Part shown: piece after piece, positions 1-30,293 of the stretch
How positions within the stretch are numbered: position 1 is the stretch's first letter
Layout: every line of letters starts with the position of its first letter
Assembly (NCBI GenBank): GCA_017460915.1
Contig: JAFUAA010000012.1
Span: 1-63,804, forward strand
Length of the DNA stretch: 63,804 bases
From: Bacteroidales bacterium
Lineage (GTDB): Bacteria; Bacteroidota; Bacteroidia; Bacteroidales; F082
Reading direction: 5' to 3'
The notes under the pieces: model-generated
What the model was told of the DNA's origin: nothing
What the model saw: the letters and a program-made list of their open reading frames with translations, nothing else
The model's database searches: none
Position numbers and translations under genes: made by a program

Positions 1-185
1 ATATGTCTCCATTGTAGGCTGGCAATCATTGGTACACCACTTTGATACCGTGGTAGGGGCACAACCCAATTGCTCTGCCAGCCACTTATTGACTCTCTGG
101 TATCCCTCCACGAGACACTCAATAGTCTCGCGGCACCTCCTTTTTCTGCAAGCACTGCCTTGATGCGATTGATGTCCTTGTCCAT
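1..185 (-). pseudogene. Decayed XRE-type helix-turn-helix regulator fragment (runs off left edge)
   Basis: The ATG at 183-185 begins MDKDINRIKAVLAEK, the usual opening of small Bacteroidota XRE regulators. The helix-turn-helix core NKWLAEQLGCAPTTVSKW is present just downstream but in another frame. About 50 nt separate the two parts where intact relatives, as I remember them, have only a few residues. The start frame stays open to the window edge but encodes nothing recognisable after residue 15. I infer an insertion or duplication with a frameshift. A TAACTTTG -7 box lies at 210-217. The C-terminal part is outside the window, so a rescue further left cannot be excluded. Confidence 0.5.
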
Positions 186-218
186 AATGGATTTCTTTTG
201 TTAATGCTACAAAGTTAC

Positions 219-449
219 TCATTTTTGTCCAAACAGAGCACAATAAGCTAAGATATTTAGCAAATAATCACATTTTAATATCATTTTCCCCATTATTCCG
301 ACAACTTTTTCTGATATTCGTCTATTAACTCCACCACTTTGGTCATTATCTGTACCAACTTGTAGGAGCGTTACCTGTCCGTTGACGCTGCCCTGCACCA
401 TTGAATTGTTGAGGGTGATTTTCATACGCTTCTGAGTTTCTGGGTGCAA
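219..449 (-). pseudogene. Small decayed coding region, probably frameshifted
   Basis: A 76-codon frame starts MKITLNNSMVQGSVNGQ (third M of the open frame upstream of it) but becomes non-protein-like halfway. From the middle, the +1 frame reads LVQIMTKVVELIDEYQKKL followed by a stop near 302, a typical short helical C-terminus. The simplest reading is one small protein of roughly 45 residues split by a frameshift, with the rest of the listed frame spurious. It lies 34 nt upstream of the decayed HTH gene on the same strand, so both may be remains of one small accessory operon. I do not recognise the family. Confidence 0.3.
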
Positions 450-930
450 AATTAAACTATCTCAGAGCGTCCCCTGCCGTGCAAAATATGCCAGAATATG
501 TATGTTTTTCCGGGTCTATGGGAATCTCGTACAGACTTCCACATTTTCACCAACTGTTACCAGTTACCAAACGTAGTAACCGAGGTAACACTTAGGTAAC
601 GGAACAGGCTCAACATTCTTTCCAATCCGAAAGAATTTCAAAAGTGTAAATGACCACAAACTAATGCAATATCAACGCTTTACACTATATCGCCCGTAAT
701 AACCTCATCATTCCCTACTACCTTGATATCCGTAAAAATAGAACGGTTTCCGAGCCATTGGCACGCTTTTTTCTTTCCCTTTGCATCGGGCGCAACCACC
801 TATGAATTATCCCTTTATTTTTCAGTTGTCAGTTTGAAGTTGGTAGTTGTCAGTTTGAAGTTGGCAGTTGTTTGGGTATTGGGCTGCCGTCTGAATTTCG
901 GGGATTGAAATCGCCCGATGAATTATGGTC
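450..930. other. Long non-coding stretch left of the DGR-like accessory gene
   Basis: No gene could be recognised here on either strand. It holds a short tandem repeat at about 822-872 (unit beginning TTGTCAGTTTGAAGTTGG) and a GTTACC-rich patch at 556-605. I looked here for a DGR template repeat, meaning an AAC-rich copy of the end of the 1763-3832 gene, and for reverse transcriptase motifs, and saw neither. A short open stretch at about 680-800 (plus) looks vaguely protein-like but has no start and no recognisable motif. Confidence 0.5.
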
Positions 931-1656
931 GCCCCTTCAGGGCTTTTGTCTACAGGAGCTTGGCCAGGTCTTGCTTGAGCTCGGCGACGAAAGCCATGCA
1001 CTCCATGGGTGTTTTCTGCTCGACAGGGAAGGCGAGGATGCGCAGCATCACTTCCGACATGCGATGGGGTTGGTCGTCGCGCATGTTTTTCAGTTCCTCT
1101 TTGACAGAGCCTCTGCGCGGTGCGACCAAAGGCACCGATGTTTTCCACTCCTCGAAACCTTGCTTAGGCAAATCTTGTTCCTGGGCAACGCTCATGAGCA
1201 AAGTGATTGTGACGCTCTTGTCGTCGTTGGCCACCATTTGCGCATCCTCGGGCAGAAACTTGCCGAGACTAGTGACGGGAAAGCCGATAAACACCACCGT
1301 CTCGCCCATTTCTCCTTTCACTTCCCGCCTTGTGGGTTTGAACTGGTTGATGAATCGGCAACACAGCCACGCGCTCCATTCGTAAGCGCGATAGAATGTG
1401 CCTTCTGGGAATAGTTGGATGGTACCCCAAGGTCCCTCTTCCATCCGTTTCCTTTCGATTTCCAGTATTTCTTTCAGTTGTGCCATATTCCTTTCGCCCC
1501 TATGGGGCTTTGTTTTTGTATTGCTTATCTGTTTGGCAGGGGTTGCGCTGCGCTTCACCGCCTGCTTAGTATCCTGTCGCCCCTACGGGGCTGGCGGCCT
1601 GCTGGGCTACCGCCGTAGACCTCAACCTACGGTTACTATAGTCTCACCCCTCGGGG
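931..1656. repeat. Series of short GCCCC-TA-GGGGC palindromes around the accessory gene
   Basis: Four related palindromes are visible: GCCCCTTCAGGGC (931-943), GCCCCTATGGGGC (1496-1508), GCCCCTACGGGGC (1579-1591) and CCCCTCGGGG (1647-1656). On the minus strand three are followed by GCGA or GCGAAA. One sits directly after the stop codon of the 950-1486 gene and one ends about 9 nt before its start codon. A further CCGTAG/CTACGG hairpin lies at about 1613-1632. They look like REP-type units of Bacteroidota intergenic regions. Confidence 0.7.
950..1486 (-). CDS. Probable DGR-associated conserved protein
   Basis: 178 residues from MAQLKEILEIERKRM; the open frame extends 24 codons further upstream, but only through a palindromic repeat, so I chose the internal ATG. 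The core FYRAYEWSAWLCCRFI, a VVFIGFP segment and a C-terminal LAFPVEQKTPMECMAFVAELK are features I associate with a Bacteroidota family found beside DGR target genes. The family has no established activity that I can cite. It lies 276 nt downstream of, and co-directional with, the lectin-like gene whose 3' end resembles a DGR variable region, which supports a functional link. No signal peptide or membrane segment is seen, so it is cytoplasmic. The DGR link rests on remembered family resemblance plus context. Confidence 0.7.
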   Translation of the reverse strand: MAQLKEILEIERKRMEEGPWGTIQLFPEGTFYRAYEWSAWLCCRFINQFKPTRREVKGEMGETVVFIGFPVTSLGKFLPEDAQMVANDDKSVTITLLMSVAQEQDLPKQGFEEWKTSVPLVAPRRGSVKEELKNMRDDQPHRMSEVMLRILAFPVEQKTPMECMAFVAELKQDLAKLL

Positions 1657-1673
1657 CGAAGCCTTTTCGCCTC

Positions 1674-1739
1674 GTTTGGCGGCAGTGGGGCTGGCTGTGA
1701 GCGCCCTGCGGGGGCGCCCCAGCCCCACTGCCGCCAAAC
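1674..1739. repeat. 66-bp hairpin just downstream of the variable-region gene
   Basis: Perfect 21-bp inverted arms at 1674-1694 and 1719-1739 (left arm begins GTTTGGCGGCAGTGGGG) enclose a 24-nt loop. The loop itself holds a second stem, GCGCCC/GGGCGC (1701-1706 with 1712-1717). It starts 23 nt after the stop codon of the 1763-3832 gene. No T-run follows on either strand, so it is not a standard intrinsic terminator. DGR targets carry a hairpin just after the variable region, so this position is suggestive, but the neighbouring REP-type palindromes offer a simpler alternative. Confidence 0.75.
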
Positions 1740-1762
1740 GCCTTGCCCGTGCCAAGGGATAA

Positions 1763-3832
1763 TTACTCGGCAGGGCAAACGAGGCGGACGGATCGACCGA
1801 GGTAACGGCCGTCGGCGCCGTCAGCGTAGAGGTAGCCATCGTCGAAGTTCACGCCCCACGCGTAGTAGCTACCGTAGTACGAAGCCGACCAGTAGTAGCC
1901 GTAGCCGCCCACATCGTAGACCGAAGACCCGTAGCGGTAGCCAGCGGCAGGCAGGAAGACTGCGCCGTGCGACTGCAAGCTGTTCTCCCATGTGGAAGAG
2001 CTAATCACGTTGCTGCTGAAGCTGGCACCACCGCTGTTGGTGCTATACAGGTTGTAGTAACTCGTACTCCAGTCATCCGGCAACAGTATCACACCATTCA
2101 CGCCCGCCACCTGGGCCTTGGCATAACGAATGCCACTGCTCGTGTTGCGAATGTTGAAGACATAGTCCCATTCGCCTTGCGTCAGCGTGCGCCACTGGTG
2201 CGACGCATTGCCACCGTTGCTTATCGCGTTGTAATAGCCCCAGTCCGAGTTCGCATAGTTGCCCGTCAAGTTATAGTTTCCGGGAGGGCCATACAAGCTG
2301 CCATTGCTGTTGTTGGAATCCCAAGGGCGATAGTAGGTGTTGCCACAGTTCCAGCCGCTCGTGCCCCAACCAAAGAGGTCTATCCATCCGCTGTAGCTTT
2401 GAGAGATGTTGCTGTTGGCATCACCTATGTAATCGTATTGGTTCGTGGCGAAACGCCATTGGGCGGTCGAGGCCTTGTATTGCAGGTTGCCTTGTGAGAA
2501 ATACACACGCTGGCTTGCGCTCACCGAGAAACGACCATTGATTGCACCTGTGGGGACCGAAGGAACCGAGGCGGTCGTAAACGTCCTCGTCTCGCCGTAT
2601 CCTGTACCAGCGCTGTTGGTGGCGTAGGCGCGCACGTAATAAGTCGTGCCCGAGCTAAGATTGGTGATGCCGCTGGTGAAGCTGCCCGTGCCTGTGCCAT
2701 TCGTCGTATGATTGCTGTTAATCGTCGGGTTGGAGCTGGTGCTCCAGCAAACGCCGCGCGCTGTCACCGTGCCGTTGCCTGCATTCACCACGTTGCCGCC
2801 GCAAGTGGCGGAGTTCTGGGTGATGTTGGTCACGCTGTTGGTGGTCACTGTGGGTAAGTAGACTTGTGCACTTGTTGTGAACGTCCTTTGGTTGCCGTAA
2901 GCCGTTCCAGCGCTGTTGGTGGCGTAGGCGCGCACATAATAGGTCGTGTTGGGCGACAGCCCAGTGATGCTGCTGGTAAAGCTACCCGTGCCTGTGCCAT
3001 TCGTCGTATGGCTATTGCTGATGGTCGGGTTAGAACTTGTGCTCCAGCACACGCCGCGCGCCGTCACCGTACCGCCACCGGCATTGGTCACGTTGCCGCC
3101 ACAAGTGGCCGTGTTCATGGCAATGTTGGTCACATTTGCCGTCGTCACCGTGGGCATCCCGACGGCATTAGTGGTGAAGTTCACCTCTTCGCCGTAGGCC
3201 GTGCCTTGGCTGTTGATGGCGTAGGCGCGCACATAATAGGTGGTGCTGAGAGACAGCCCTGTCATGTTTACCGTGAACTCTCCCGTTCCCGTGCCGCTGT
3301 TGGCATGGCTTCCGCTGATGGTCGGGTTATGGCTCGTGCCCCAGCAGATGCCGCGTTCGCTGACGCTGCCGCCGCCATCGTTAGTCACCTTGCCGCCGCA
3401 AATGGCCGAGTTAGTGGTGATGTCGGTCACCTCGTAGGTCTCCACTGACGGCAGCATATAGTCGCGCGTGGTGAAGGTTACCTTGCCGCTGGAACCTATG
3501 CCGCCCGCATTGCGTGCGAAAGCTTCGTAGACATAGTTTGAGTTAGGCTGAAGATTGTTTAGCGTGGCAGAAAACACGCCGATACCATCGCCGCAATAGA
3601 TGGTGTCGAGGCTACCACCTGAGAGGCCATAGACGAAGCCGCGCGACTTAACTTCCGCACCGCCTTGGTCGGTCACCTCTGCCGAAACGTCAGCAGAAGT
3701 ATAGTAAACCGTAATGGCACCATCAAAGGCCTTCACCGTGGGCGGTGCCACAGTTTCCTTTTTACAGGAAGAAACAAAGAACATTAGCCCTCCAAAAAGG
3801 AATAATATTCTGAATATTTGCAAGTTATTCAT
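1763..3832 (-). CDS. Lipoprotein with four Ig-like repeats and C-terminal lectin/FGE-like domain (DGR variable protein)
   Basis: 689 residues. The signal peptide has lipobox VSSC with C23, predicting a lipid-anchored and probably surface protein. Residues 30-425 hold four modules of about 95 residues with the pattern GGNVTNxGGGTVTARGVCWS ... YYVRAYATNSAGTxYG, a fibronectin-like bacterial surface repeat. Residues 428-689 form a C-type-lectin/formylglycine-enzyme-like domain (GWIDLFGWGT, WRTLTQGEWDY, GVILLPDDW, GAVFLPAAGYRYG, YYWSAS ... GRSVRLV). The last variable codons, 1796-1885, are almost all NNC or NNT with Y, G, D, S, L, A and N, exactly what adenine mutagenesis of AAC/AAT codons gives. 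The domain should bind a ligand that varies between lineages. It is third in a minus-strand run after the 8322-7120 and 7107-3925 genes. Confidence 0.85.
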   Translation of the reverse strand: MNNLQIFRILFLFGGLMFFVSSCKKETVAPPTVKAFDGAITVYYTSADVSAEVTDQGGAEVKSRGFVYGLSGGSLDTIYCGDGIGVFSATLNNLQPNSNYVYEAFARNAGGIGSSGKVTFTTRDYMLPSVETYEVTDITTNSAICGGKVTNDGGGSVSERGICWGTSHNPTISGSHANSGTGTGEFTVNMTGLSLSTTYYVRAYAINSQGTAYGEEVNFTTNAVGMPTVTTANVTNIAMNTATCGGNVTNAGGGTVTARGVCWSTSSNPTISNSHTTNGTGTGSFTSSITGLSPNTTYYVRAYATNSAGTAYGNQRTFTTSAQVYLPTVTTNSVTNITQNSATCGGNVVNAGNGTVTARGVCWSTSSNPTINSNHTTNGTGTGSFTSGITNLSSGTTYYVRAYATNSAGTGYGETRTFTTASVPSVPTGAINGRFSVSASQRVYFSQGNLQYKASTAQWRFATNQYDYIGDANSNISQSYSGWIDLFGWGTSGWNCGNTYYRPWDSNNSNGSLYGPPGNYNLTGNYANSDWGYYNAISNGGNASHQWRTLTQGEWDYVFNIRNTSSGIRYAKAQVAGVNGVILLPDDWSTSYYNLYSTNSGGASFSSNVISSSTWENSLQSHGAVFLPAAGYRYGSSVYDVGGYGYYWSASYYGSYYAWGVNFDDGYLYADGADGRYLGRSVRLVCPAE
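1781..1890 (-). other. Candidate DGR variable region (VR)
   Basis: Of the 27 codons from the S before YYGSYY to the G before RSVRLV, about 23 end in C or T, and their first two positions differ freely, while framework residues (AW, NF) stay fixed. The segment ends in a GC-rich stretch encoding RSVRLVCPAE, where the initiation-of-mutagenic-homing site would lie. This is the standard position of a VR at the 3' end of a lectin-fold gene. The matching template was not found in the window. Confidence 0.65.
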
Positions 3833-3924
3833 TATTGATTGGCTTTACTGTAGCTCGATTAACAAACTGGTTGACTATATTCTCAATTCTTCCGCATTGC
3901 AAAGGCGGAAAAGCGGGATTGCAA

Positions 3925-6900
3925 TCATCGTATTGACCATGCACATTGTTCACCCGTATTGGTTTGGAGAATTGTAACAGATCCGTTATTGGGATTGATT
4001 GTGGCAATAATACCATACCATTCTGCTCTATACTTACCATCTGCAAGTCCACATGAAGGTTCAACGGCAGAAGACCTAGTGTCGGAAACATATCCAGCCC
4101 AATACAGCGTTCCCGTGTCTCTATCAAAGCCTCCGCTTTGTGCATAATTAATGAAATAGTTTAAAGCAGAAACCCATGTTGCCGAACCCGTGGATTTGTT
4201 GATACGGTAGAAATTACCATAATCACTAGCAGTCCCTTGCACGCCATAAAGCTGTCCCGAGCTGCTACAAAAGAGAGCCAACATATTTCCCTCTATTCCA
4301 AATGACCCCACATACGTTTGCGCTCCTGTACTCATATTAATGATGTACAAATCATTTCCTTTGCTTCCATAGAGTCGGCCCGTCGTATAATCATAAGCAC
4401 AATCGGAACAATACACATCTGGACCGACATAATGGCTGGAGACAATTGTGCCCGTCGTAGCATTTATCTTGTAAAAATAATACAAATCCTCCGAATCTGT
4501 AAAACCATAGGCATACAAATAGCCATTATAGTAATCGCCACCAAGCAAATTCAAATCAGCATTTATGGTTGTAATACTGCTATGGTTGCTAATGGGATAT
4601 TTCAAATAACCACTTGTCGAATAAGCATACTGTGAGGCGTATGCGTATTTTGTTGCTGTTGTCGTAAACGTACGCGACTCGCCATACCCCGTACCCACAC
4701 TATTGGTGGCGTAGGCACGCACATAGTAGGTCGTTCCTGGGCTCAGATTGGTAAGGTTGCTCGTGAAACTGCCCGTTCCCGTTCCGTTATTGGTATTGTA
4801 ATTGTTGATGGTTGGGTTGGGACTCGTGCTCCAGCAAACGCCACGCCGCGTCACCGACGAGCCACCATGGTCGGTAACATTACCACCACAAACAGCTGAA
4901 TTTTGCGTGATATTCGACACTTGCGAAGTGGTTACCGTGGGAACGGCAGGGCTGGTCTTGAATTGTTTCTGGTCTCCGTAGGCCGTGCCATGGCTGTTGA
5001 TGGCATAGGCGCGAACGTAATAGACCGTATTTGCCGAAAGCCCTGTAATGCTGCTGGTGAAACTCCCAGTTCCTGTGCCATCATTTGTACATTGGTTGTT
5101 CGTGGTCGGGTTTTGGCTCGTACTCCAGCATACGCCGCGTCGCGTCACCATTGCTCCGCCATCGCTCGTCACGTTGCCCCCACTGGTTGCAGAGGTTTGC
5201 GTGATGTTAGACATGTTGTTTGTCGTCACCGTCGGCATGCCGGCGCCATTGGTTGTGAAGGTCTTTTGCTCCCCATAACTTGTTCCTGCGCTGTTGGTGG
5301 CGTAGGCACGCACGTAATACGTAGTGCTCATCGACAAGCCTGTGATGCTACTCGTGAAGCTGCCCGTACCAGTACCATCATTTGTACATTGGTTGTTCGT
5401 GGTCGGGTTGGGACTAGTGCTCCAGCATACGCCACGCGCTGTCACCGTCGCACCGCCATCGGCGGTCACTTTGCCGCCACAAGTGGCCGTGTTCATGGCA
5501 ATGTTGGTCACATTTGCCGTCGTCACCGTGGGCATCCCGACGGCATTGGTGGTGAAGTTAACCTCTTCGCCGTAGGCCGTGCCTTGGCTGTTGATGGCGT
5601 AGGCGCGCACATAATAGGTGGTGCTGAGAGACAGTCCCGTCATGTTTACCGAGAACTCTCCCGTTCCCGTGCCGCTGTTGGCATGGCTGCCGCTGATGGT
5701 CGGGTTATGGCTGGTGCCCCAACAAATGCCGCGTTCGGTTACCGTTGCACCACCTGTTGAGATGACGTTGCCGCCACCTGTGGCCGTGGTCTGCCCGATA
5801 TTCGTTACCGATGCCGTGGTCACGCCAGGCACGGAGATGGAAAGCGTGGTGAACTCCACCTCCTCGCCATAGCTTGTTCCCGCGCCATTGGTGGCGTAGG
5901 CTCTCACATAATAGGTCGTATTCGTATTCAGTTGGGTCATCAATGCAGTGAACTCACCAGTCCCTTCATCGGCCACCACGTGAGTGCCTGCTATGGACGG
6001 GTTGTGGTTGGTGCTAAAGCAAAGGCCGCGTTCTGTCACTGCACTACCGCCGTCGTCACTCACGTTGCCACTGCCGTTAGCCGTGGAAGTGGTGATGTTG
6101 GTCACATTGCCCGTCGAAACCGTGGGCGGGTTGGCCGAGGTGTTGAAGCTCACTTCCTCGCCGTAGGCAGTGCCTCGGCTGTTGGTGGCGTAGGCACGCA
6201 CATAGTAGGTCGTGTGGGCATTCAAGCCTGGCATATCACAGTTAAAGCTGCCAGTCCCTGTGCCGCTTGTGGCCACTTGGTCACGTATCGTTGGGTTGTG
6301 GTTTGTGTCCCAGCAGATGCCGCGTTCCGTAACGGTGGTGCCACCGTCATCAGTCACGTTGCCACCGCCCTTGGCTGAGGTTTGGGTGATGTCGGTCACG
6401 TTTGCCGTAGTCACCTCGGGTAGGTTGTAGTCTTCTGTCGTGAAGCTTTTCTCTTCACCGTATGCAACCCCTTTGATATTCTTGGCGTAAGCACGCACAT
6501 AATAGACCGTGTTGGCCGACAAGTTATTCAAATTGCAGGCATATTCACCCATGCCACTGCCTGCCGATGCATGGCTTCCCGAAACCACGGGGTTATGGTT
6601 CGTGTCCCAGCACACGCCGCGTTCAGTCACTTCAGCGCCTCCGTCGTTAGTCACGTTGTTGCCAACGCACGATGCCGTAGTCGTGCCTATGCTTTCCACT
6701 TCGCCGGTCTTTACTGTAGCCATGTCGTGGTCGCGAGTGGAAAAAGTCACTTTACCACTTGTGCCGAAGCCTCCTGCGTTGCGGGCAAAGGCTTCGTAGA
6801 CATACACGGTGTTGGCTTGCAGTCCGACAAATTCTGCGGAAAAAGCGCCAATGCCACTTCCGCAATAAATGGTATCCAATGCTCCACCAGAAACACCGTA

Positions 6901-7107
6901 GGCAAAGCCTCGCGATTTCACTTCTGCGCCACCTTGGTCGGTCACCTCTGCCGAAACTCCAGCCGTGGTGATGTTCACACTACTTGGTCCGTCACCAAAC
7001 AACCTCACTGTTGGAGGGGCGATGGTTTCCTTTTTGCATGTGGTTAGGCCCAAAACCAAAACAGTCATCATTACGATGACCATAAATCTATTACGATTCC
7101 TCAGCAT
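3925..7107 (-). CDS. Large repeat lipoprotein with eight Ig-like modules and a propeller-like C-terminus
   Basis: 1060 residues with lipobox LTTC (C24). Eight modules of about 95 residues follow, the same family as in the downstream gene; the first (EVTDQGGAEVKSRGF, TIYCGxGIG) is a distinct N-terminal type shared by both proteins. Residues from about 820 hold repeated units such as GYLYAYG, GRLYGSKGNDLYIINMSTG, GQLYGVQG and GTLYWAGY, which suggest a beta-propeller. Some modules are nearly identical in DNA to those of the 1763-3832 gene. The start is 12 nt after the stop of the VWA lipoprotein gene, so they are probably cotranscribed. Likely a cell-surface adhesin or stalk protein; the ligand is unknown. 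Confidence 0.85.
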   Translation of the reverse strand: MLRNRNRFMVIVMMTVLVLGLTTCKKETIAPPTVRLFGDGPSSVNITTAGVSAEVTDQGGAEVKSRGFAYGVSGGALDTIYCGSGIGAFSAEFVGLQANTVYVYEAFARNAGGFGTSGKVTFSTRDHDMATVKTGEVESIGTTTASCVGNNVTNDGGAEVTERGVCWDTNHNPVVSGSHASAGSGMGEYACNLNNLSANTVYYVRAYAKNIKGVAYGEEKSFTTEDYNLPEVTTANVTDITQTSAKGGGNVTDDGGTTVTERGICWDTNHNPTIRDQVATSGTGTGSFNCDMPGLNAHTTYYVRAYATNSRGTAYGEEVSFNTSANPPTVSTGNVTNITTSTANGSGNVSDDGGSAVTERGLCFSTNHNPSIAGTHVVADEGTGEFTALMTQLNTNTTYYVRAYATNGAGTSYGEEVEFTTLSISVPGVTTASVTNIGQTTATGGGNVISTGGATVTERGICWGTSHNPTISGSHANSGTGTGEFSVNMTGLSLSTTYYVRAYAINSQGTAYGEEVNFTTNAVGMPTVTTANVTNIAMNTATCGGKVTADGGATVTARGVCWSTSPNPTTNNQCTNDGTGTGSFTSSITGLSMSTTYYVRAYATNSAGTSYGEQKTFTTNGAGMPTVTTNNMSNITQTSATSGGNVTSDGGAMVTRRGVCWSTSQNPTTNNQCTNDGTGTGSFTSSITGLSANTVYYVRAYAINSHGTAYGDQKQFKTSPAVPTVTTSQVSNITQNSAVCGGNVTDHGGSSVTRRGVCWSTSPNPTINNYNTNNGTGTGSFTSNLTNLSPGTTYYVRAYATNSVGTGYGESRTFTTTATKYAYASQYAYSTSGYLKYPISNHSSITTINADLNLLGGDYYNGYLYAYGFTDSEDLYYFYKINATTGTIVSSHYVGPDVYCSDCAYDYTTGRLYGSKGNDLYIINMSTGAQTYVGSFGIEGNMLALFCSSSGQLYGVQGTASDYGNFYRINKSTGSATWVSALNYFINYAQSGGFDRDTGTLYWAGYVSDTRSSAVEPSCGLADGKYRAEWYGIIATINPNNGSVTILQTNTGEQCAWSIR

Positions 7108-7119
7108 AGTTTGTCTTAT

Positions 7120-8322
7120 TTAATTGGTTTTCAACACATCCACAAACTCCTTGGCATAATTGCGAAGCTTTCTGAATTGGTCGTTTCCAAGAGATTGCGA
7201 GCAGTCGAGATTCAGCATAATCATGCCACTATAATAGTTGTTGGTGATTTCCGTGTTGCCGGAGTTGGTGAACTCTGTGTTATGAACCCATCCATTCGAG
7301 TTAGTGTTGTATTTCCATTCTTGAAGATGGGCAATAGTATTGCTGTTGAACTCACTTCCATCAGTATTCGCCATGCCTTCGAACTCAAAAATGGCGAAGG
7401 GACGCTCCATCCTAACCGCCTTTACCGTATTGCCGCTTGTGCTAGTCACACCTCTGTATTGGACGTTGGTCAGCACGCCAATGCCATCACTTCCGTTAAC
7501 ATACACTCCTTCAATATATTTCTGTGACTGATTTGCTCCGTTATAATCCGTAGTCGTAATATCAAAAGTGAAGCGGACCTTCGTGTTTGGTTCGGGTGCA
7601 GGCGGATTAAGCGTCATTTTTGCGTTTTCAACAGTTTGATGCAGGCTTCTTGCAATGGCCTCAAATGCTTCACTAACTTCATCGAAACTGGTGACATGAT
7701 GCACATAGCCAGCAGGCCATTCCTCGTCAGCAAGGGAGGAAATGCCATTCAAGTTATCAAGAAACTCGTTCATATCGTAGCTGAACACATCAGTGCCCTG
7801 GATGCCGATGGTGTGTGACTTGATTTCCAGTCCGCCAACCTTTTCCGTACGTATTCTTTGAGTGATGGCTCTCAAATACTCAGCCCCACCGTTGTAATTG
7901 GAGAAAGTATAAGAGCCTTCGTCCAATCCATCAGTGAAATTGACGATAGCCACTTGCTTCAAATCCTTTGGAATACCATTCGCTTCCAGCATGTCCAAGG
8001 AGGTGTTCACCGAGTGGTAAAGCAAGGTGGCTCCGCCCATCGAAAGGTTTTCGATAAACTGTTTCGTTTCTTGGATAGTGTTAGCGTCAAGTCTAGTGAT
8101 AGGCCTTGTGTATAGCTGTTGGTTGAAACCAATAACGCCAAGGTACATGCCTGCAGGAAGTTCGACGCCAGAACCACCGCTTCCACCATTTCCATTGCCT
8201 CCGTTATTTCCTCCATTGTTTCCATTGTTGTCTCCCCCATTCTCGGGGTCTTTCGTGCAGGCGGTACACACCACCGCCACCGTTAGCATTATGGCTGCTA
8301 AAGCCTTCGTGAATCTTTGCAT
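7120..8322 (-). CDS. Lipoprotein with a VWA-like domain whose MIDAS motif lies at the C-terminus
   Basis: 400 residues. Lipobox TAC (C22) is followed by an Asn/Gly linker to about residue 52. Residues 58-240 read like a von Willebrand A fold from its second strand on: LGVIGFNQQLYT, then GGATLLYHS with the MIDAS threonine near T99, then IVNFTDGLDEGS with D131-G132. The DxSxS motif that normally begins a VWA domain is instead at the extreme C-terminus, LDCSQSLG (D373, S375, S377), after a beta-rich region. I read this as a circularly permuted or non-contiguous VWA domain. It is the first gene of the surface operon. A decayed partial copy lies at 45532-45815. Confidence 0.8.
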   Translation of the reverse strand: MQRFTKALAAIMLTVAVVCTACTKDPENGGDNNGNNGGNNGGNGNGGSGGSGVELPAGMYLGVIGFNQQLYTRPITRLDANTIQETKQFIENLSMGGATLLYHSVNTSLDMLEANGIPKDLKQVAIVNFTDGLDEGSYTFSNYNGGAEYLRAITQRIRTEKVGGLEIKSHTIGIQGTDVFSYDMNEFLDNLNGISSLADEEWPAGYVHHVTSFDEVSEAFEAIARSLHQTVENAKMTLNPPAPEPNTKVRFTFDITTTDYNGANQSQKYIEGVYVNGSDGIGVLTNVQYRGVTSTSGNTVKAVRMERPFAIFEFEGMANTDGSEFNSNTIAHLQEWKYNTNSNGWVHNTEFTNSGNTEITNNYYSGMIMLNLDCSQSLGNDQFRKLRNYAKEFVDVLKTN

Positions 8323-8658
8323 AACTAATTAGTATTTAACCTGTTAACAATTTCCATTGAAAAGACATAAAAAAATGCCGCAAGCAACACCTTGTTGCTG
8401 CCACATATTAGAAAACAGATTCCGTAAATAATGGGAAAAATATATTATACTCCTCGGAAAGGCAACAGGATGGGCATCAGTAAGGCGCCTTGCCCCCCCC
8501 CAATAACTCATTAATAATCAATATATTACAATAATAATACATATTTCACGAGTATAATAATGACTGCAAAAATAAGAAAAAATTCGGTCTGCTATGAATT
8601 TTGGGCCCGACATTTGTACTATTTTCAATAATTTTGCAAAAGTAAAAATAAAACCCAA
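8323..8658. other. Divergent intergenic region with a nine-C tract
   Basis: It separates the minus-strand surface operon from the plus-strand NamZ-like gene. A run of nine C residues lies at about 8493-8501. A TAATTTTG box at 8629-8636 fits the -7 element for the 8659 gene. No open frame with recognisable content was seen. Confidence 0.5.
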
Positions 8659-9861
8659 ATGAAACGACAAATCTTTTCTTTCGCCTTGCTGTTTTGCGCT
8701 TTCCTGTCGCAAACCAACGCCCAAATCTTCAAGATGGACGATGAACCACGCTTGCAGTTCGTCGACAAGGAGCACTACATCTCTGCCGCCATGCAACTCG
8801 ATGACTATCTGCCATTTCTGGAAGGCAAACGCATTGGCATCGTCGCCAACCAAACGAGCATCATTGGTGAAACGCATTTGGTCGACACGCTGCTATCGCT
8901 GGGTGTCGACGTGAAGAAAATCTTCACGCCCGAGCACGGTTTTCGCGGTACGGCCGACGCCGGCGCCAAGGTGAAAAGCGGCAAGGACGAGAAAACCGGT
9001 CTTCCCATCGTGTCGCTCTATGGCAAGACCAAGAAGCCCTCGCCTGAGATGCTGCAAGGCATCGACGTCATTCTATTTGATTTACAAGATGTTGGCGTAC
9101 GGTTCTACACCTATATCTCCACGATGAGCTATGTGATGGAAGCCGCCGCCGAAAACCATATCCCCGTCATCGTCCTCGACCGCCCCAATCCGAACGGTTT
9201 CTATGTGGATGGTCCCGTGTTGAAGACAGAGAACAAATCCTTTGTCGGAATGCACCAAGTGCCGGTCGTCTACGGCATGACCATCGGCGAATACGCCCAA
9301 ATGGTGAACGGCGAAGGCTGGCTGAAAAGCGGCTTCACCTGCGACTTGACCGTGATCCCTATCCGCAAATACAACCGAAACGCCATCTATGAGTTGCCCG
9401 TGCGCCCTTCGCCCAACCTGCCCAACTGGGAGTCGGTCTACCTCTACCCTACCTTGTGCTTCTTCGAAGGCAGCATCGTCAGCATGGGACGTGGCACGGA
9501 GACGCCGTTCCAAGTCTACGGTCATCCCAGCATGAGAGGCAGCTACACCTTTACGCCCCAAAGCACAAGCGGTGCCTCAAAGCCTCTACTGGAAGGTCAG
9601 CGATGCCGAGGCGAAAATTTGGTTGAATTCGCGCACGATTACGCTCACAACGCCAACGAGTTACAATTAGATTGGATCATTGATGCCTACCAGCAGTTGA
9701 AAAACAAAGGCTTCTTCAAAGATTACTTCCGTCTGCTTGCAGGCGACAAACAACTCCAACGCGACATAGAAAACGGAAAAAGCGCGGACGAGATCCGCGC
9801 TTCGTGGAAAACCGACCTTGAGGCGTTCAAGGCCGTTAGGGAGAAGTACTTGATGTACTAG
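8659..9861 (+). CDS. DUF1343 / NamZ-family exo-beta-N-acetylmuramidase
   Basis: 400 residues with a signal peptide ending about TNA|Q (residue 21). It shows the DUF1343 core: LEGKRIGIVANQTS, LLSLGVDVKKIFTPEHGFRG, LPIVSLYGKTKKPSPEML, DVILFDLQDVGVRFYTYIST, VIVLDRPNPNG and YGMTIGEYA. Characterised NamZ removes N-acetylmuramic acid from the non-reducing ends of peptidoglycan fragments. The length matches full-length relatives, so a periplasmic cell-wall recycling enzyme is likely. It stands alone, with its own TAATTTTG promoter box 23 nt upstream of the ATG. Confidence 0.88.
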   Translation: MKRQIFSFALLFCAFLSQTNAQIFKMDDEPRLQFVDKEHYISAAMQLDDYLPFLEGKRIGIVANQTSIIGETHLVDTLLSLGVDVKKIFTPEHGFRGTADAGAKVKSGKDEKTGLPIVSLYGKTKKPSPEMLQGIDVILFDLQDVGVRFYTYISTMSYVMEAAAENHIPVIVLDRPNPNGFYVDGPVLKTENKSFVGMHQVPVVYGMTIGEYAQMVNGEGWLKSGFTCDLTVIPIRKYNRNAIYELPVRPSPNLPNWESVYLYPTLCFFEGSIVSMGRGTETPFQVYGHPSMRGSYTFTPQSTSGASKPLLEGQRCRGENLVEFAHDYAHNANELQLDWIIDAYQQLKNKGFFKDYFRLLAGDKQLQRDIENGKSADEIRASWKTDLEAFKAVREKYLMY

Positions 9862-9907: not shown

Positions 9908-10999
9908 TCAATCCATTTGCTTCAGTTCATAATAAGTGCCACGGCCTGAGCCTTCCTTAACAAGCATGCCTTTCTGCAAGAGGTCTTCGATGTCACGCAA
10001 GGCCGTGTCGGAGGAGCATTTGACAAGCTTTGCCCATTTTGAACTGGTCAGTTTGCCCGCGAAGCCGTCTAGCAGCCTGTTGATGACTTTCCGTTGCCGC
10101 TCATTGATGGGCGTCTCCTTGTGGGATTCCCAATACTCACCCTTCGATATCACCTTGGCAATGATCTGTTCCGTCTGCTGCAATGCTTCTTCCATGCAAG
10201 CCAAAAACCAAGCAATCCAAGGGGTGATGTCCATGCCTCCATGTTGCGTTTTCTCCAGCATATCGTAATACTCCGAACGGTGGTTACTGAACGTGGCCGA
10301 CATGCTATAGAAACGGTGTATCATGCCGTCAGAGCGGGTCAAGAACATATCCGTCAAAGTACGCGATAGGCGGCCATTGCCATCTGTGAAAGGATGGATG
10401 GTGACAAACCAAAGCGGAACGATAGCGGCTTTGATAATGGGATCAATGGATTCGGCATTATTGGCCCATTGAATGAGTTCTTCCATCAGCCTTGGCACTT
10501 CCGGTGATGGTGGGGCCTCAAAATGCACCTTTTCACGCCCCAAGGCGCCCGACACTACCTGCATCGTCTTCTGGCTCTCGCGCCAAGTGCCTACCTTGAA
10601 CCTTGCGCCATTCGGGAATAATGCAGCATGCCATCCAAACAGGCGTTCTGCAGTCAGTGGCTTGTTGTAGTTTTTCACTGCGTCCACCATCACGTCCACG
10701 ATGCCTTCCACATAGCGGTCGGCAGGCGGAAGTCCTTCGCGCTCCAAGCCTAGTTGTCGCGCCACCGACGAGCGTACCGACTTCCCGTCTAGCATTATGC
10801 CTTCGATTTTAGATGAGTTCATCAAATCTTCGGTCATCACGTCGAGAGTGGTATTTAACTCGGTATCAAAGCCCAGGGTGGTGATGCGGCCAATCAATAC
10901 GCCCTGTCTCATCCTGACTTCAGCCAAAGGTTTTGCCAATTGCCCGGAGTCCCAAATGAAATGCGGCCATTCAGGGTGTTGCCAAATGTAGGTTTCCAT
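9908..10999 (-). CDS. Fic-family protein with N-terminal inhibitory motif and C-terminal winged helix
   Basis: 363 residues. The Fic motif HPFTDGNGRLSR is complete at residues 202-213, with catalytic H202 and the phosphate-binding loop. Upstream, NSSKIEG (S62 to E66) matches the class II inhibitory helix motif S/TxxxE, whose glutamate blocks productive ATP binding. The N-terminus resembles DUF4172 and the C-terminus (NERQRKVINRLLDGF ... SSDTALRDIEDLLQKG) is a winged-helix DNA-binding domain. Fic enzymes usually AMPylate a protein; the target is unknown. The promoter (TATATTTG read on the minus strand, 11022-11029) is overlapped by strong palindromes, which suggests autoregulation. Confidence 0.92.
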   Translation of the reverse strand: METYIWQHPEWPHFIWDSGQLAKPLAEVRMRQGVLIGRITTLGFDTELNTTLDVMTEDLMNSSKIEGIMLDGKSVRSSVARQLGLEREGLPPADRYVEGIVDVMVDAVKNYNKPLTAERLFGWHAALFPNGARFKVGTWRESQKTMQVVSGALGREKVHFEAPPSPEVPRLMEELIQWANNAESIDPIIKAAIVPLWFVTIHPFTDGNGRLSRTLTDMFLTRSDGMIHRFYSMSATFSNHRSEYYDMLEKTQHGGMDITPWIAWFLACMEEALQQTEQIIAKVISKGEYWESHKETPINERQRKVINRLLDGFAGKLTSSKWAKLVKCSSDTALRDIEDLLQKGMLVKEGSGRGTYYELKQMD

Positions 11000-11021
11000 G
11001 TTTCAAAACAGTTTTGCGGTG

Positions 11022-11080
11022 CAAATATACAATTTTCGCCGCAAATTTGCGGCGAAAACGATATTTTTTCGCCGCAAAAC
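11022..11080 (-). promoter_or_regulatory. fic promoter with overlapping palindromic operator
   Basis: A TATATTTG -7 box (minus strand, 11022-11029) is followed upstream by a perfect 26-bp palindrome at 11033-11058 built on TTTTCGCCGC/GCGGCGAAAA. A further half-site, TTTTCGCCGCAAAA, lies at 11067-11080, and a partial TTTGCGG lies at 11013-11019. The palindrome covers the -33 region, the classic place for a repressor site. The encoded Fic protein has its own winged helix. Confidence 0.65.
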
Positions 11081-11328
11081 AACGGAATCATGGACTTGCC
11101 ATTTGATGCCAAGGGCAAATTCCGCTGTATTTATGTCAGAAATCATCAGGTGCAATTCCTTCCCATTCGGAAATGGCAGCGCATACGAATTCATGAGGCT
11201 TTATTGGTATCAGGATATTGTGGGATATTGATTGGGGAACGGGGAAATAATGGAAACATTGCGGCAATCACAATGTGACAGCCCTACACCCGAGCGATGT
11301 AGGGCTGTCATGGCATGGCAGCCGTTGG
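11081..11328. other. Intergenic region with one hairpin
   Basis: No gene was recognised. A hairpin (GACAGCCCTACA ... TGTAGGGCTGTC, 11278-11311) sits just past the stop of the 11329 gene and could end its transcript, although no clear T-run follows. Confidence 0.4.
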
Positions 11329-12219
11329 CTAAAATGACAATGTTAGAAAAACACCATTTCCCGTAAAGCCGTAATCCAATTCAATATCGCCTTGCGAATA
11401 CATCCTGCCGTTATTGTAGAGATTAGCAGCTTTGCGGATTTTGGCATGACCAGATGATACTATTGCTTTTTCCATTAGGTTTTCTGCAACAATCAGAGCA
11501 ATGCCTCCTCCTATCAACCATAATCCATCAATAGCAATATTCTTATATTTAGTAGCTTTTGATAATTCTTCCTCATACAGGTATTTATACTCATCATATG
11601 TATATGTATAGTGATTATAACTGTTCGCATCTAGTTTATGTTTCATTTCTTTAGCACTATTGTTTTTTACACCATATAATGGCCAGAACACACCTTGAAA
11701 AGCGACACCTGTAGTTATCGAAATTATACCAAACACCATTGCCAATGTGTATGACGCATCAAAAGTCATGCCTGCAATCCTCATCCCTTCATCATACAAA
11801 CTATACGAATTGGAATTTGCAAACAATGTCCTAATCTCATGATCACTCAACTTTTTGCCATTTTTTGAAACAATGAATCCATCTGCATATAGTGCCTCAT
11901 CTGCAACATACGTGTTGGCATTTTCATAACACAATGTAAAATCATCAAATTCCACACGGATGTTTCCCGCCTTGGCCACTTGGCAAAGCACATAAACGCG
12001 GCAAGGCGACACCTTATTATCGGTGTATTCGCACACCTTGTTGATGGGAATGTTGTATTGCGAGGAAATCACGTAATACTCTGTTCCCCTTTGCAATGCG
12101 CGATTGATTTCCTCCGAATCAAAAGGCTGCCCGATACGCATGGCCGTAGAACGGAATACTTCGGCAATGGCTCTGTTTCGGGCTTGCAGCTCGGTTTGTC
12201 CTGTTGCCGATTCCACCAC
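11329..12219 (-). CDS. Unrecognised membrane-associated protein; 5' end broken by an in-frame stop
   Basis: The uninterrupted part is 296 codons from a GTG. The same frame continues upstream as LLLALFAFSATAQKLPDWITAKPS, a good signal peptide, back to ATG AAA CAG AAA ACT GTA TAA (12339-12319), so codon 7 is a stop. The ancestral protein was probably 336 residues and exported. The region after the signal (ARNRAIAEVFRSTAMRIG) resembles periplasmic stress-type domains. Two hydrophobic stretches, YTLAMVFGIISITTGVAFQG and IAIDGLWLIGGGIALIVAE, look membrane-inserting. Without the signal peptide any product from the GTG would be mislocalised. I do not recognise the family. Confidence 0.6.
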   Translation of the reverse strand: MVESATGQTELQARNRAIAEVFRSTAMRIGQPFDSEEINRALQRGTEYYVISSQYNIPINKVCEYTDNKVSPCRVYVLCQVAKAGNIRVEFDDFTLCYENANTYVADEALYADGFIVSKNGKKLSDHEIRTLFANSNSYSLYDEGMRIAGMTFDASYTLAMVFGIISITTGVAFQGVFWPLYGVKNNSAKEMKHKLDANSYNHYTYTYDEYKYLYEEELSKATKYKNIAIDGLWLIGGGIALIVAENLMEKAIVSSGHAKIRKAANLYNNGRMYSQGDIELDYGFTGNGVFLTLSF

Positions 12220-28022: not shown

Positions 28023-30293
28023 TTAATGGCTGACCGTGAATCTTGTGGTCATGGTCTCAGCCGTGCCCTTGATGGCGATCGTGTAAATGCCCGATGCTAA
28101 GCTCGAAGTGTTGACGACAGTGGCATCGCCATTGCAGCTTTGCTGATACACCACTTGGCCCATCATGTTGTACACCGTCACCTCTTGCAGGCCTTCGGCC
28201 TCGACCGTCATGAAGGTGTTGGCAGGATTGGGATAGAGGTTGATGTTTTGCTGGCATTCGTCGACTGAGGTCACTGTCAGGTGAATGTAGTCGGCACCGT
28301 CATTTGCCCAAGCCGGCGTGGATTCGCAATAGCTGCGGAAAGCGGTCACCTTATAATAGTAATCGCCCGATTCGACGATGTCGAAATACTCGCGCAAGGT
28401 CTTGTCAACCGTGGCCACCTCCTCGTAAGTGATGCCATCGGTGCTGCGATACACCTTGAAGGATTGCGGGTCGTTTTCATAGCTCCAGGTCAGCAAGGTG
28501 CCAAAGCCTTCGCCCGTCCATTGGTATTCGCCAGACAAAGCGGTAGGAGGCTCGCAGCCGCCGCAGTCGTTGTTGTCGGAGTGAATCTCGCCGTTCAGTT
28601 GGCTTGAGCTGCCCGTGAAGGTGTAGACCGTGGCATTGGCCGAATTCTTGATGCTGATGGTCATGTTGCTGACAGCCGTTGCAGGAGCCACCCAGCGGAA
28701 CGAAACGTCGCCTTCAGGCATACGGATTTGTTGGCTGATGGGCGTCGAGTTGGTCATGGTGATTTCTTCGACAACCGAGCCGAAGGAGTTGAGCACCTGA
28801 ACCTTACCGCCATTCCAGCCTTGGAAGTTGGCCGTCTGGCCAATCAATTTCCAAGTGCAAGTGGGGCCATATTGGTATTTCACATCCGTGAAACGACCTT
28901 TGGTGCCGTTGGTGACATAGTACAAACGATAGGTATAGCAATCGAAATCGTTGACATTATCGGTGAACGACATGGTCTCGCCAGCCGCGACATTGTTTTG
29001 GCTGAAGATTTGTTGGTCGTCGCGCATCAACACCACTTGTTCGATGTTCTCGATGGTTTCGCCAGCCATGTTGGTGGTCGGGTTGGTCCAAGTGATGATG
29101 CCTGTCTTGGAATTGGCATTTTCGGAAACCACAGTCATGTTGGTAACGGAGGGAATCAAGCCGTCATAGATATAATCGGGAATGAAATCAAAGATGGCCG
29201 ACTGGTTCTCGTTGAAAGATCCGTTATAGCCGCAGTTGAGTGCATCGACGGCGAAGTAGTTGTTCATGTAGCCGCTCCAGCCCCAGTTGAAGTGGAACTT
29301 GTTGTCGCTCGCACGATAGCCGTCGCAGCCGAAAGCGTGGCCGCCGCCATCGCCACTGCCCGAATAATACAGTGGGAAGCCGTATTCCAGATTACGGATG
29401 AGCTTTTCCTCCCATTCGGCCTTGGTGTATTGGTCGCGGCTCAGATGGTCGCAGTGGCTCGTATAGCGGAAATAGTCGCGGATGGCACCAGGCACATCGA
29501 AAGAGTAGGCACCCGAACCTGACGGACTGTATTGCATATCGACAGCCACACCGCAGTGGTACATCAACGTGGCAACAGCCTGGTAATTGGAGTTGTTGCA
29601 CGAATTCGGCATGTTGTCCCAATCGTAATAGGTCGACTCGAAATCGACGCTTTGGGTGGGATAGCCGCTGGGCGTGTAGCTGTGCGAGCCCTGACCATGG
29701 TCGGGCCAGTTCCAACGTTTCATCACCATCGACATGGCCGTGGCCACGCAGCCTGCATAGGCTTTTCCGCCAGGTCCGCCTTGCCCCGTCGGGCAGTAAT
29801 AGTTATAAGGGCTGTCCTGATTCCAAGTGGTGGTAAGAATCGGGGCGACGTCGCCACGAGTGCTACGGTTGTCGTTCTCGAAGCCGTCTTTCACCACGTG
29901 CTCCCATCGGGCGGCCACATCGGCCTCAGGCACGAAGCCATTGGTCACGGCATAGTCGATTTGGCGGGCATAATAACCCAGATAGTAGGCCAAACCGTCA
30001 GGGATGTTGTTGATGTCGAAGGTCTCGCCTTCGCCGAAGGAAAGGATGGGATAGGCCACGTCGTCAGCCGAAACCATGACATAACCATTGTCAAAGTTGA
30101 AGACATAAACAGCGTTGGTGCCGTTCTCCGTCAGTTGGGTATAGGCCAAATCGAGAGTGGCGACTTGTCGGGCAGAATGGCTCTGCACGTACTTCATGCC
30201 AAGGTGGCGTGCTTGCTCCACGCTCACTGGCGAGGCGATAGCTTGACCCACAAACAGAGCCAAAACCGTCATCATGAATAAAGACTTTCTCAT
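28023..30293 (-). CDS. Second secreted C10-family cysteine protease with T9SS sorting domain
   Basis: 756 residues, same layout as its downstream neighbour: signal peptide, Spi-like propeptide (FNFDNGYVMVSADDVAYPIL), protease domain with C182 in YAGCVATAMSMVMKRW and H319 in GGHAFGCDGY, beta-sandwich region, then the sorting domain INLYPNPANTFMTVEAEGLQ with MTTRFTVSH at the end. It lacks about 100 residues of the fibronectin-like region of the first copy. Its own TATTTTTG box lies at 30342-30335 on the minus strand, and a 90-nt gap with a second box separates it from the next gene, so the two are separately promoted. Confidence 0.93.
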   Translation of the reverse strand: MRKSLFMMTVLALFVGQAIASPVSVEQARHLGMKYVQSHSARQVATLDLAYTQLTENGTNAVYVFNFDNGYVMVSADDVAYPILSFGEGETFDINNIPDGLAYYLGYYARQIDYAVTNGFVPEADVAARWEHVVKDGFENDNRSTRGDVAPILTTTWNQDSPYNYYCPTGQGGPGGKAYAGCVATAMSMVMKRWNWPDHGQGSHSYTPSGYPTQSVDFESTYYDWDNMPNSCNNSNYQAVATLMYHCGVAVDMQYSPSGSGAYSFDVPGAIRDYFRYTSHCDHLSRDQYTKAEWEEKLIRNLEYGFPLYYSGSGDGGGHAFGCDGYRASDNKFHFNWGWSGYMNNYFAVDALNCGYNGSFNENQSAIFDFIPDYIYDGLIPSVTNMTVVSENANSKTGIITWTNPTTNMAGETIENIEQVVLMRDDQQIFSQNNVAAGETMSFTDNVNDFDCYTYRLYYVTNGTKGRFTDVKYQYGPTCTWKLIGQTANFQGWNGGKVQVLNSFGSVVEEITMTNSTPISQQIRMPEGDVSFRWVAPATAVSNMTISIKNSANATVYTFTGSSSQLNGEIHSDNNDCGGCEPPTALSGEYQWTGEGFGTLLTWSYENDPQSFKVYRSTDGITYEEVATVDKTLREYFDIVESGDYYYKVTAFRSYCESTPAWANDGADYIHLTVTSVDECQQNINLYPNPANTFMTVEAEGLQEVTVYNMMGQVVYQQSCNGDATVVNTSSLASGIYTIAIKGTAETMTTRFTVSH

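Follow-up and report, generated by a model that had tools for sequence, protein, structure and literature searches.

Target gene and associated features

The window, meaning the whole stretch of 63,804 nucleotides of Bacteroidales DNA that was analysed, lies on contig C43 of genome G000. The features considered here are found in the window and on a second contig of the same genome, C6; coordinates without a prefix are those of the window.

950..1486, minus strand: MSL (MutS-like) gene; 178 aa, MutS-domain-I-like; follows the variable repeat directly and is the likely accessory gene
1673..1740, minus strand: perfect 22-bp inverted repeat; arms 1719-1740 and 1673-1694, 24-base loop
1763..3832, minus strand: DGR target gene; ORF of 689 aa with a lipoprotein-type start (FVSSC), ending in the variable repeat
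1766..1961, minus strand: variable repeat (VR); 196 bases, ungapped match to the template repeat, altered codons from 1933 down to 1793
8576..8615, no strand assigned: 40-bp repeat identical to C6:27856-27895 (Blast of the window against C6); proposed right island edge
8659..9861, plus strand: NamZ-type gene (exo-beta-N-acetylmuramidase family; PF07075, E 5e-83); right island flank
G000:C6:30076-30271, minus strand: template repeat (TR); 196 bases, matching window 1766-1961
C6, start at 30042, minus strand: reverse transcriptase (RT) gene; 33 bases between the TR and the RT start

In the translation of the target gene a cysteine directly follows FVSS, as at a lipoprotein-type start, and the VR closes the ORF, as the preliminary description had claimed in placing the variable region at the 3' end of a lipoprotein gene. 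The N-terminal part of the protein contains several fn3-like repeats (PF00041, E 3e-13), and the C-terminal domain is putatively lectin-like, with the last residues ...GYYWSASYYGSYYAWGVNFDDGYLYADGADGRYLGRSVRLVCPAE. Lcl_C (PF07603), which we take to be the later name of DUF1566, was matched by 12 of 16 aligned members, the window protein itself being without a match. The fold model of the target domain was poor (pLDDT 55), and Foldseek returned 218 matches with a best E of 0.55, a weak comparison. We infer that the protein is displayed on the cell surface and binds a ligand. The neighbouring gene (3925-7107, minus strand) encodes a lipoprotein-type protein of 1060 aa with fn3-like repeats as in the target and a different C-terminal part.

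The template and variable repeats

The region served as a DNA query against the whole source genome (2.98 Mb, 79 contigs, 95.7% complete). Apart from the region itself, the search returned one strong match, C6:30076-30270 (minus strand, 87% identical), and two weak ones. The TR and VR differ at 26 of 196 ungapped positions, and 25 of these differences fall at TR adenines; the remaining one is at a T. Sorted by TR base, the altered positions are A 25/49, C 0/63, G 0/47 and T 1/37, or 25/49 for A against 1/147 for the other bases (hypergeometric P 5e-17). The template that a genome search had been expected to reveal therefore exists, a single difference departing from the expectation that all would lie at adenines, and the proposed footprint of adenine-specific mutagenesis is borne out. 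A 57-base pattern in which the TR adenines were freed, applied with a tolerance of 3 mismatches, matched nothing in the genome but the TR and the VR. The non-A identity of 146/147 suggests that the rewriting was recent.

The changes fall largely in AAC and AAT codons, where the first position is altered in 17 of 18 and the second in 5 of 18. The 16 AAC codons of the TR became 9 Tyr, 3 Gly, 2 Asp and 1 Leu in the VR, one being unaltered and none becoming Ser, and the two AAT codons became Asp and Gly. In a reconstituted DGR, AAC is reported to yield mostly Tyr, Ser and Asp, and AAU leans to Gly/Asp (PMC12875486, in the parts cited here); the context bias is similar, except that Ser, a frequent outcome of AAC in that system, does not occur in the present VR. 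The altered adenines read G 13, T 11 and C 1 in the VR. In 15 of 20 relative TR/VR pairs, which had been chosen for few non-A differences, the outcomes were G 225, T 142 and C 27.

The region was originally recognized by its codons, about 23 of 27 consecutive ones having been described as NNC or NNT. This count is correct: stretches of 27 codons starting from 1888 to 1846 contain 22-26 C/T-ending codons, and 30 of the 37 codons spanning 1781-1891 end in C or T. However, such codons make up 67.5% of the target gene overall, and 38 of its 654 stretches of 37 codons contain at least 30 of them, so the codon pattern alone is within chance for this gene. The observation is confirmed in part, and it stands because a template exists and nearly all TR/VR differences lie at its adenines. 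The AW and NF residues, described as a fixed framework, are indeed the same in template and VR, the N of NF being an AAC codon in the template that by chance was left unaltered. The variable region was correctly located at 1781..1890, but this extent was somewhat too short; six more adenine-altered codons lie upstream of it, starting at 1933, 1927, 1918, 1915, 1903 and 1897. With a template, an RT gene and an accessory gene identified, its assignment as a DGR-type variable region is supported.

The reverse transcriptase and its apparent frame break

The RT encoded close to the TR is of the DGR type. It matches PF00078 and a PHROG RT family (E 1e-84), its GLPIGNLTSQ and YVDD motifs align with those of its relatives, and it is homologous to the RTs adjoining TR/VR pairs in 20 of 24 loci. 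The best solved match is chain 8ub7_A (E 4.6e-32), listed just as 'Reverse transcriptase'; we take it to be the BPP-1 DGR RT complex.

The RT is not full-length as assembled. Its frame stops at residue 318, with the break near codon 315, and beyond this point the conserved C-terminal part can be read in a different frame only. As this part is otherwise open, the break appears to be of recent date, and it may mean either a dead RT or an assembly error. The frame is open for at least 373 residues in 20 of 22 relatives, so the break is not a feature of the family. It bears on the present activity of the DGR, not on the origin of the VR.

The MSL gene and the inverted repeat

The MSL protein gives a sub-threshold match to PF01624 (MutS_I), and its predicted model is MutS-domain-I-like. 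The gene lies between the VR and the TR in all 18 relatives checked. The genome contains five Avd-like genes (PF05635), none of them on C6 or C43.

The inverted repeat spans 23-90 bases past the target stop codon, and none of 100 dinucleotide shuffles was equally good. Comparable repeats, reached by 0-2 of 100 shuffles, occur in 16 of 17 relatives, the exception being L059 (40/100); L056, whose target frame was not resolved, was left out of this count, and L038 and L062 were not included. BPP-1 is reported to require a shorter hairpin/cruciform at the equivalent place (PMC3240598, in the passages concerned), and the repeat is here a candidate target-recognition hairpin/cruciform. MSL is likely to be the accessory protein and the inverted repeat the target-site signal.

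A split cassette within a proposed island

The VR and MSL are on one contig and the TR and RT on another. Comparison of the window-contig ends with C6 showed no overlap and no sequence joining the two. With as many as 3 mismatches allowed, the genome contains exactly two copies of the 40-bp repeat, both in the same orientation: on C6 an FtsX/MacB-type permease gene begins with it, and the window copy lies just upstream of the NamZ-type gene. We predicted that relatives free of the island would show the permease and NamZ genes divergent and adjacent. The NamZ gene was found in 52 of 60 genus genomes searched (our own included), and the best 30 of these 52 provided 29 relative loci. The permease directly adjoins the NamZ gene, divergently, in 17 of the 29, and 11 of these 17, aligned at the site, match the 40-bp repeat at 39-40 of 40 bases. 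In another 9 it lies 0.8-5.9 kb away, and in three (G007, G003, G046) the available DNA around the NamZ gene showed no permease. Lectin-like matches occur in 3 of the 9 inserts (G036, G065 and G089 (short); loci L206, L207 and L208). In this genus, the stretch between the permease and NamZ genes is thus a hotspot for insertions (L204-L209, L211, L212).

Because the repeat occurs exactly twice and the outer genes are adjacent in most relative loci, the simplest reading is a single island made up of C6:27896-42846 and window 1-8575, together 23.5 kb, with an unassembled gap in addition. That the contigs adjoin is inferred and not read directly; it would put 14.3 kb and the length of the gap, hence at least 14.3 kb, between the VR and the TR. 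One proposed end carries the RT, the TR and a HATPase/HTH gene beside them, and the other carries MSL, the VR, the target and two further lipoprotein-type genes. Genes lying between MSL and the TR encode a Helicase_C protein, Schlafen/AlbA_2 proteins and an Eco57I-type methylase that resembles type IIG restriction enzymes; the products of others gave no Pfam match. This restriction-like cluster would separate the cassette halves within one island. It occupies ~30.7-42.8 kb of C6 (locus L215, C6:26001-42846) and includes AlbA_2/HATPase proteins and a 514-aa protein with a marginal PADLOC match only.

Relatives and other DGR-like loci

Related loci share the order target-VR, MSL, TR, RT, and a TR/VR pair was found in 20 of 24 loci scanned. 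This kind of DGR is already known; among the loci examined, the split layout occurs in this genome only, and the RT frame break is not common to the relatives. Among 99 genus genomes (our own included), MSL is matched in 18 (E 1e-5) and the RT in 16 (E 1e-20), the latter count taking in distant RTs. A short N-terminal MSL piece (34-82 residues aligned, loci L162-L171) directly follows a VR-like gene end in G074, G068, G084, G086, G007, G072, G040, G087, G061 and G069. None of these ten genomes, most of them 73-85% complete (G072 100%, G069 98%), gave an RT match, and so it seems that a VR together with MSL, or with part of MSL, often persists after the RT is gone. The pieces are candidate remnants or a candidate conserved downstream DNA element. 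At L048 a VR-type target end lies directly before the RT, and a search of that genome for MSL found none.

The source genome itself contains further DGR-like sequences. A second set on C75 (L144, G000:C75:4000-14092) comprises, at ~9930-12100, an RT with a TR just upstream, and, ~0.7 kb further upstream, a VR at the end of a phage-like ORF of more than 2000 residues; past the first 25 of 135 aligned positions this pair has 14 differences, at 14/38 A and 0/72 other positions. Two orphan VR-like gene ends, L030 (G000:C19:112198-114255, minus strand), a Ser/Thr kinase-lectin fusion, and L231 (G000:C2:17476-17674, minus strand), match the template of a relative (L046/G023) at 138-139 of 152 non-A positions and at 25 and 29 of 51 A positions. 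No copy of a template turned up when the source genome was searched with the C19 sequence.

A +1 frame change at one and the same place, after codon 58 (TGCTTTCGT), is common to 4 of 13 virus-assigned RT relatives, which represent three distinct sequences. The carriers are L223/L224 (identical over the 960 bases compared), L225 and L226, with 74-84% nucleotide identity; the change is absent in L217-L221. Downstream of the site, the differences by codon position (37/24/104 for L223 vs L225, 31/24/101 and 18/13/77) suggest purifying selection on the shifted RT frame, making this a candidate site of programmed +1 frameshifting in a DGR RT. A literature search on DGRs with ribosomal frameshifts turned up only phage-annotation work.

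Discussion

We are highly confident that window 1766-1961 is a DGR VR that was rewritten from the C6 TR by mutagenic retrohoming via a DGR RT, and past rewriting of the target 3' end is well supported. An RNA copy of the TR would have been reverse transcribed by the RT, with misincorporation opposite template adenines, and the mutated cDNA would then have replaced the 3' end of the lipoprotein gene. Such rewriting would have hit AAC/AAT codons for the most part, at what is presumably a surface-exposed lectin-like site. The genome contains several lectin-like paralogues, and ordinary gene conversion or selection among them might generate variation with no retroelement involved. This is extremely improbable, given that the differences are confined to template adenines but for one, that an RT and MSL are present, and that eight paralogue stretches match the TR (ungapped) at only 62-67 (seven) or 76 (L030) of 147 non-A positions. 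It is also conceivable that the two halves sit at unlinked chromosomal sites and that the TR-RT acts or acted strictly in trans, with no single island. The different contigs and their lack of overlap would fit such an arrangement, and remote and trans targets are described elsewhere (PMC7517822, PMC10907252, in the sections cited), but the 40-bp repeat at the two proposed island edges only and the adjacency of the outer genes in relatives make it unlikely.

Given that the RT now ends early near codon 315, the DGR probably ceased to work not long ago; this would not hold if the frame break came from faulty assembly or were bypassed. That the DGR is still live, through an error in the assembly, bypass in translation, or activity supplied by another RT such as that of C75, is a possibility of some weight, although we consider it the less probable state. 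The C-terminal RT part remains open in its other frame, the near-perfect identity outside adenines suggests recent rewriting, and C75 does carry another DGR-like RT, accompanied by a TR and a VR of its own. On the other hand, 20 of 22 relatives keep the RT frame open, and the C75 RT is just 31-35% identical and has its own pair of repeats. A more elaborate proposal appears quite improbable: recoding would throttle RT production across this DGR family, through a +1 shift after codon 58 that the virus-borne relatives would require and, in the present genome, through low-rate read-through near codon 315, where the frame change would then be no lesion, and a split, slow but live DGR would go on varying the surface protein from inside a restriction-bearing island.

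Our analysis shows that a genome-wide search can tie an adenine footprint without nearby machinery to a template and RT on another contig. A large metagenome survey states that its own approach would miss such remote targets (PMC8144416). The work also describes a concrete DGR family, with MSL in place of Avd and a compact, conserved layout in Bacteroidales MAGs, which is suited to asking what role a MutS-like protein has in mutagenic homing. In addition, it suggests a route of decay in which the target, the VR and MSL, or a piece of it, remain after the TR-RT has been separated or lost.

As in the DGR of Bordetella phage BPP-1, where the RT lies beside the TR, the RT of the C6 locus is found next to the template. 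The BPP-1 DGR (mtd, avd, brt) likewise has an adenine-restricted TR/VR pair, a VR at the 3' end of its target and an inverted repeat just past the VR (PMC3240598, in the portions cited). The inverted repeat is 8 bp there and 22 bp with a 24-base loop here, and Avd is replaced by MSL. BPP-1 is moreover a phage, whereas the present DGR lies on a bacterial chromosome, with a split cassette and a broken RT frame.

MSL (MutS-like, PF01624) is reported as a DGR accessory in the relevant part of PMC10053308, and the accessory type is probably the same here, as judged by the sub-threshold match and the model. In 18 relatives, 0.96-1.31 kb separates the start of the VR from that of the TR, MSL lying in this interval; in the present genome the TR-RT occupies a different contig and is at least 14 kb distant. 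DUF1566 is given as the commonest target domain in a human-microbiome survey, which also reports lipoprotein targets (PMC4159848, in the text cited). In contrast to those gut targets, the present one has fn3-like repeats in its N-terminal part, and its relatives are mostly from ruminants (17 of 25 record titles). Finally, the remote or trans targets and the degenerate loci with broken or missing parts in cyanobacteria and Thiohalocapsa (PMC7517822, PMC10907252, as far as the cited sections describe them) share with our locus a VR distant from the TR-RT and degenerate parts. Our locus differs from them in that a restriction-like cluster apparently lies inside one cassette and that the TR has only one matching VR.
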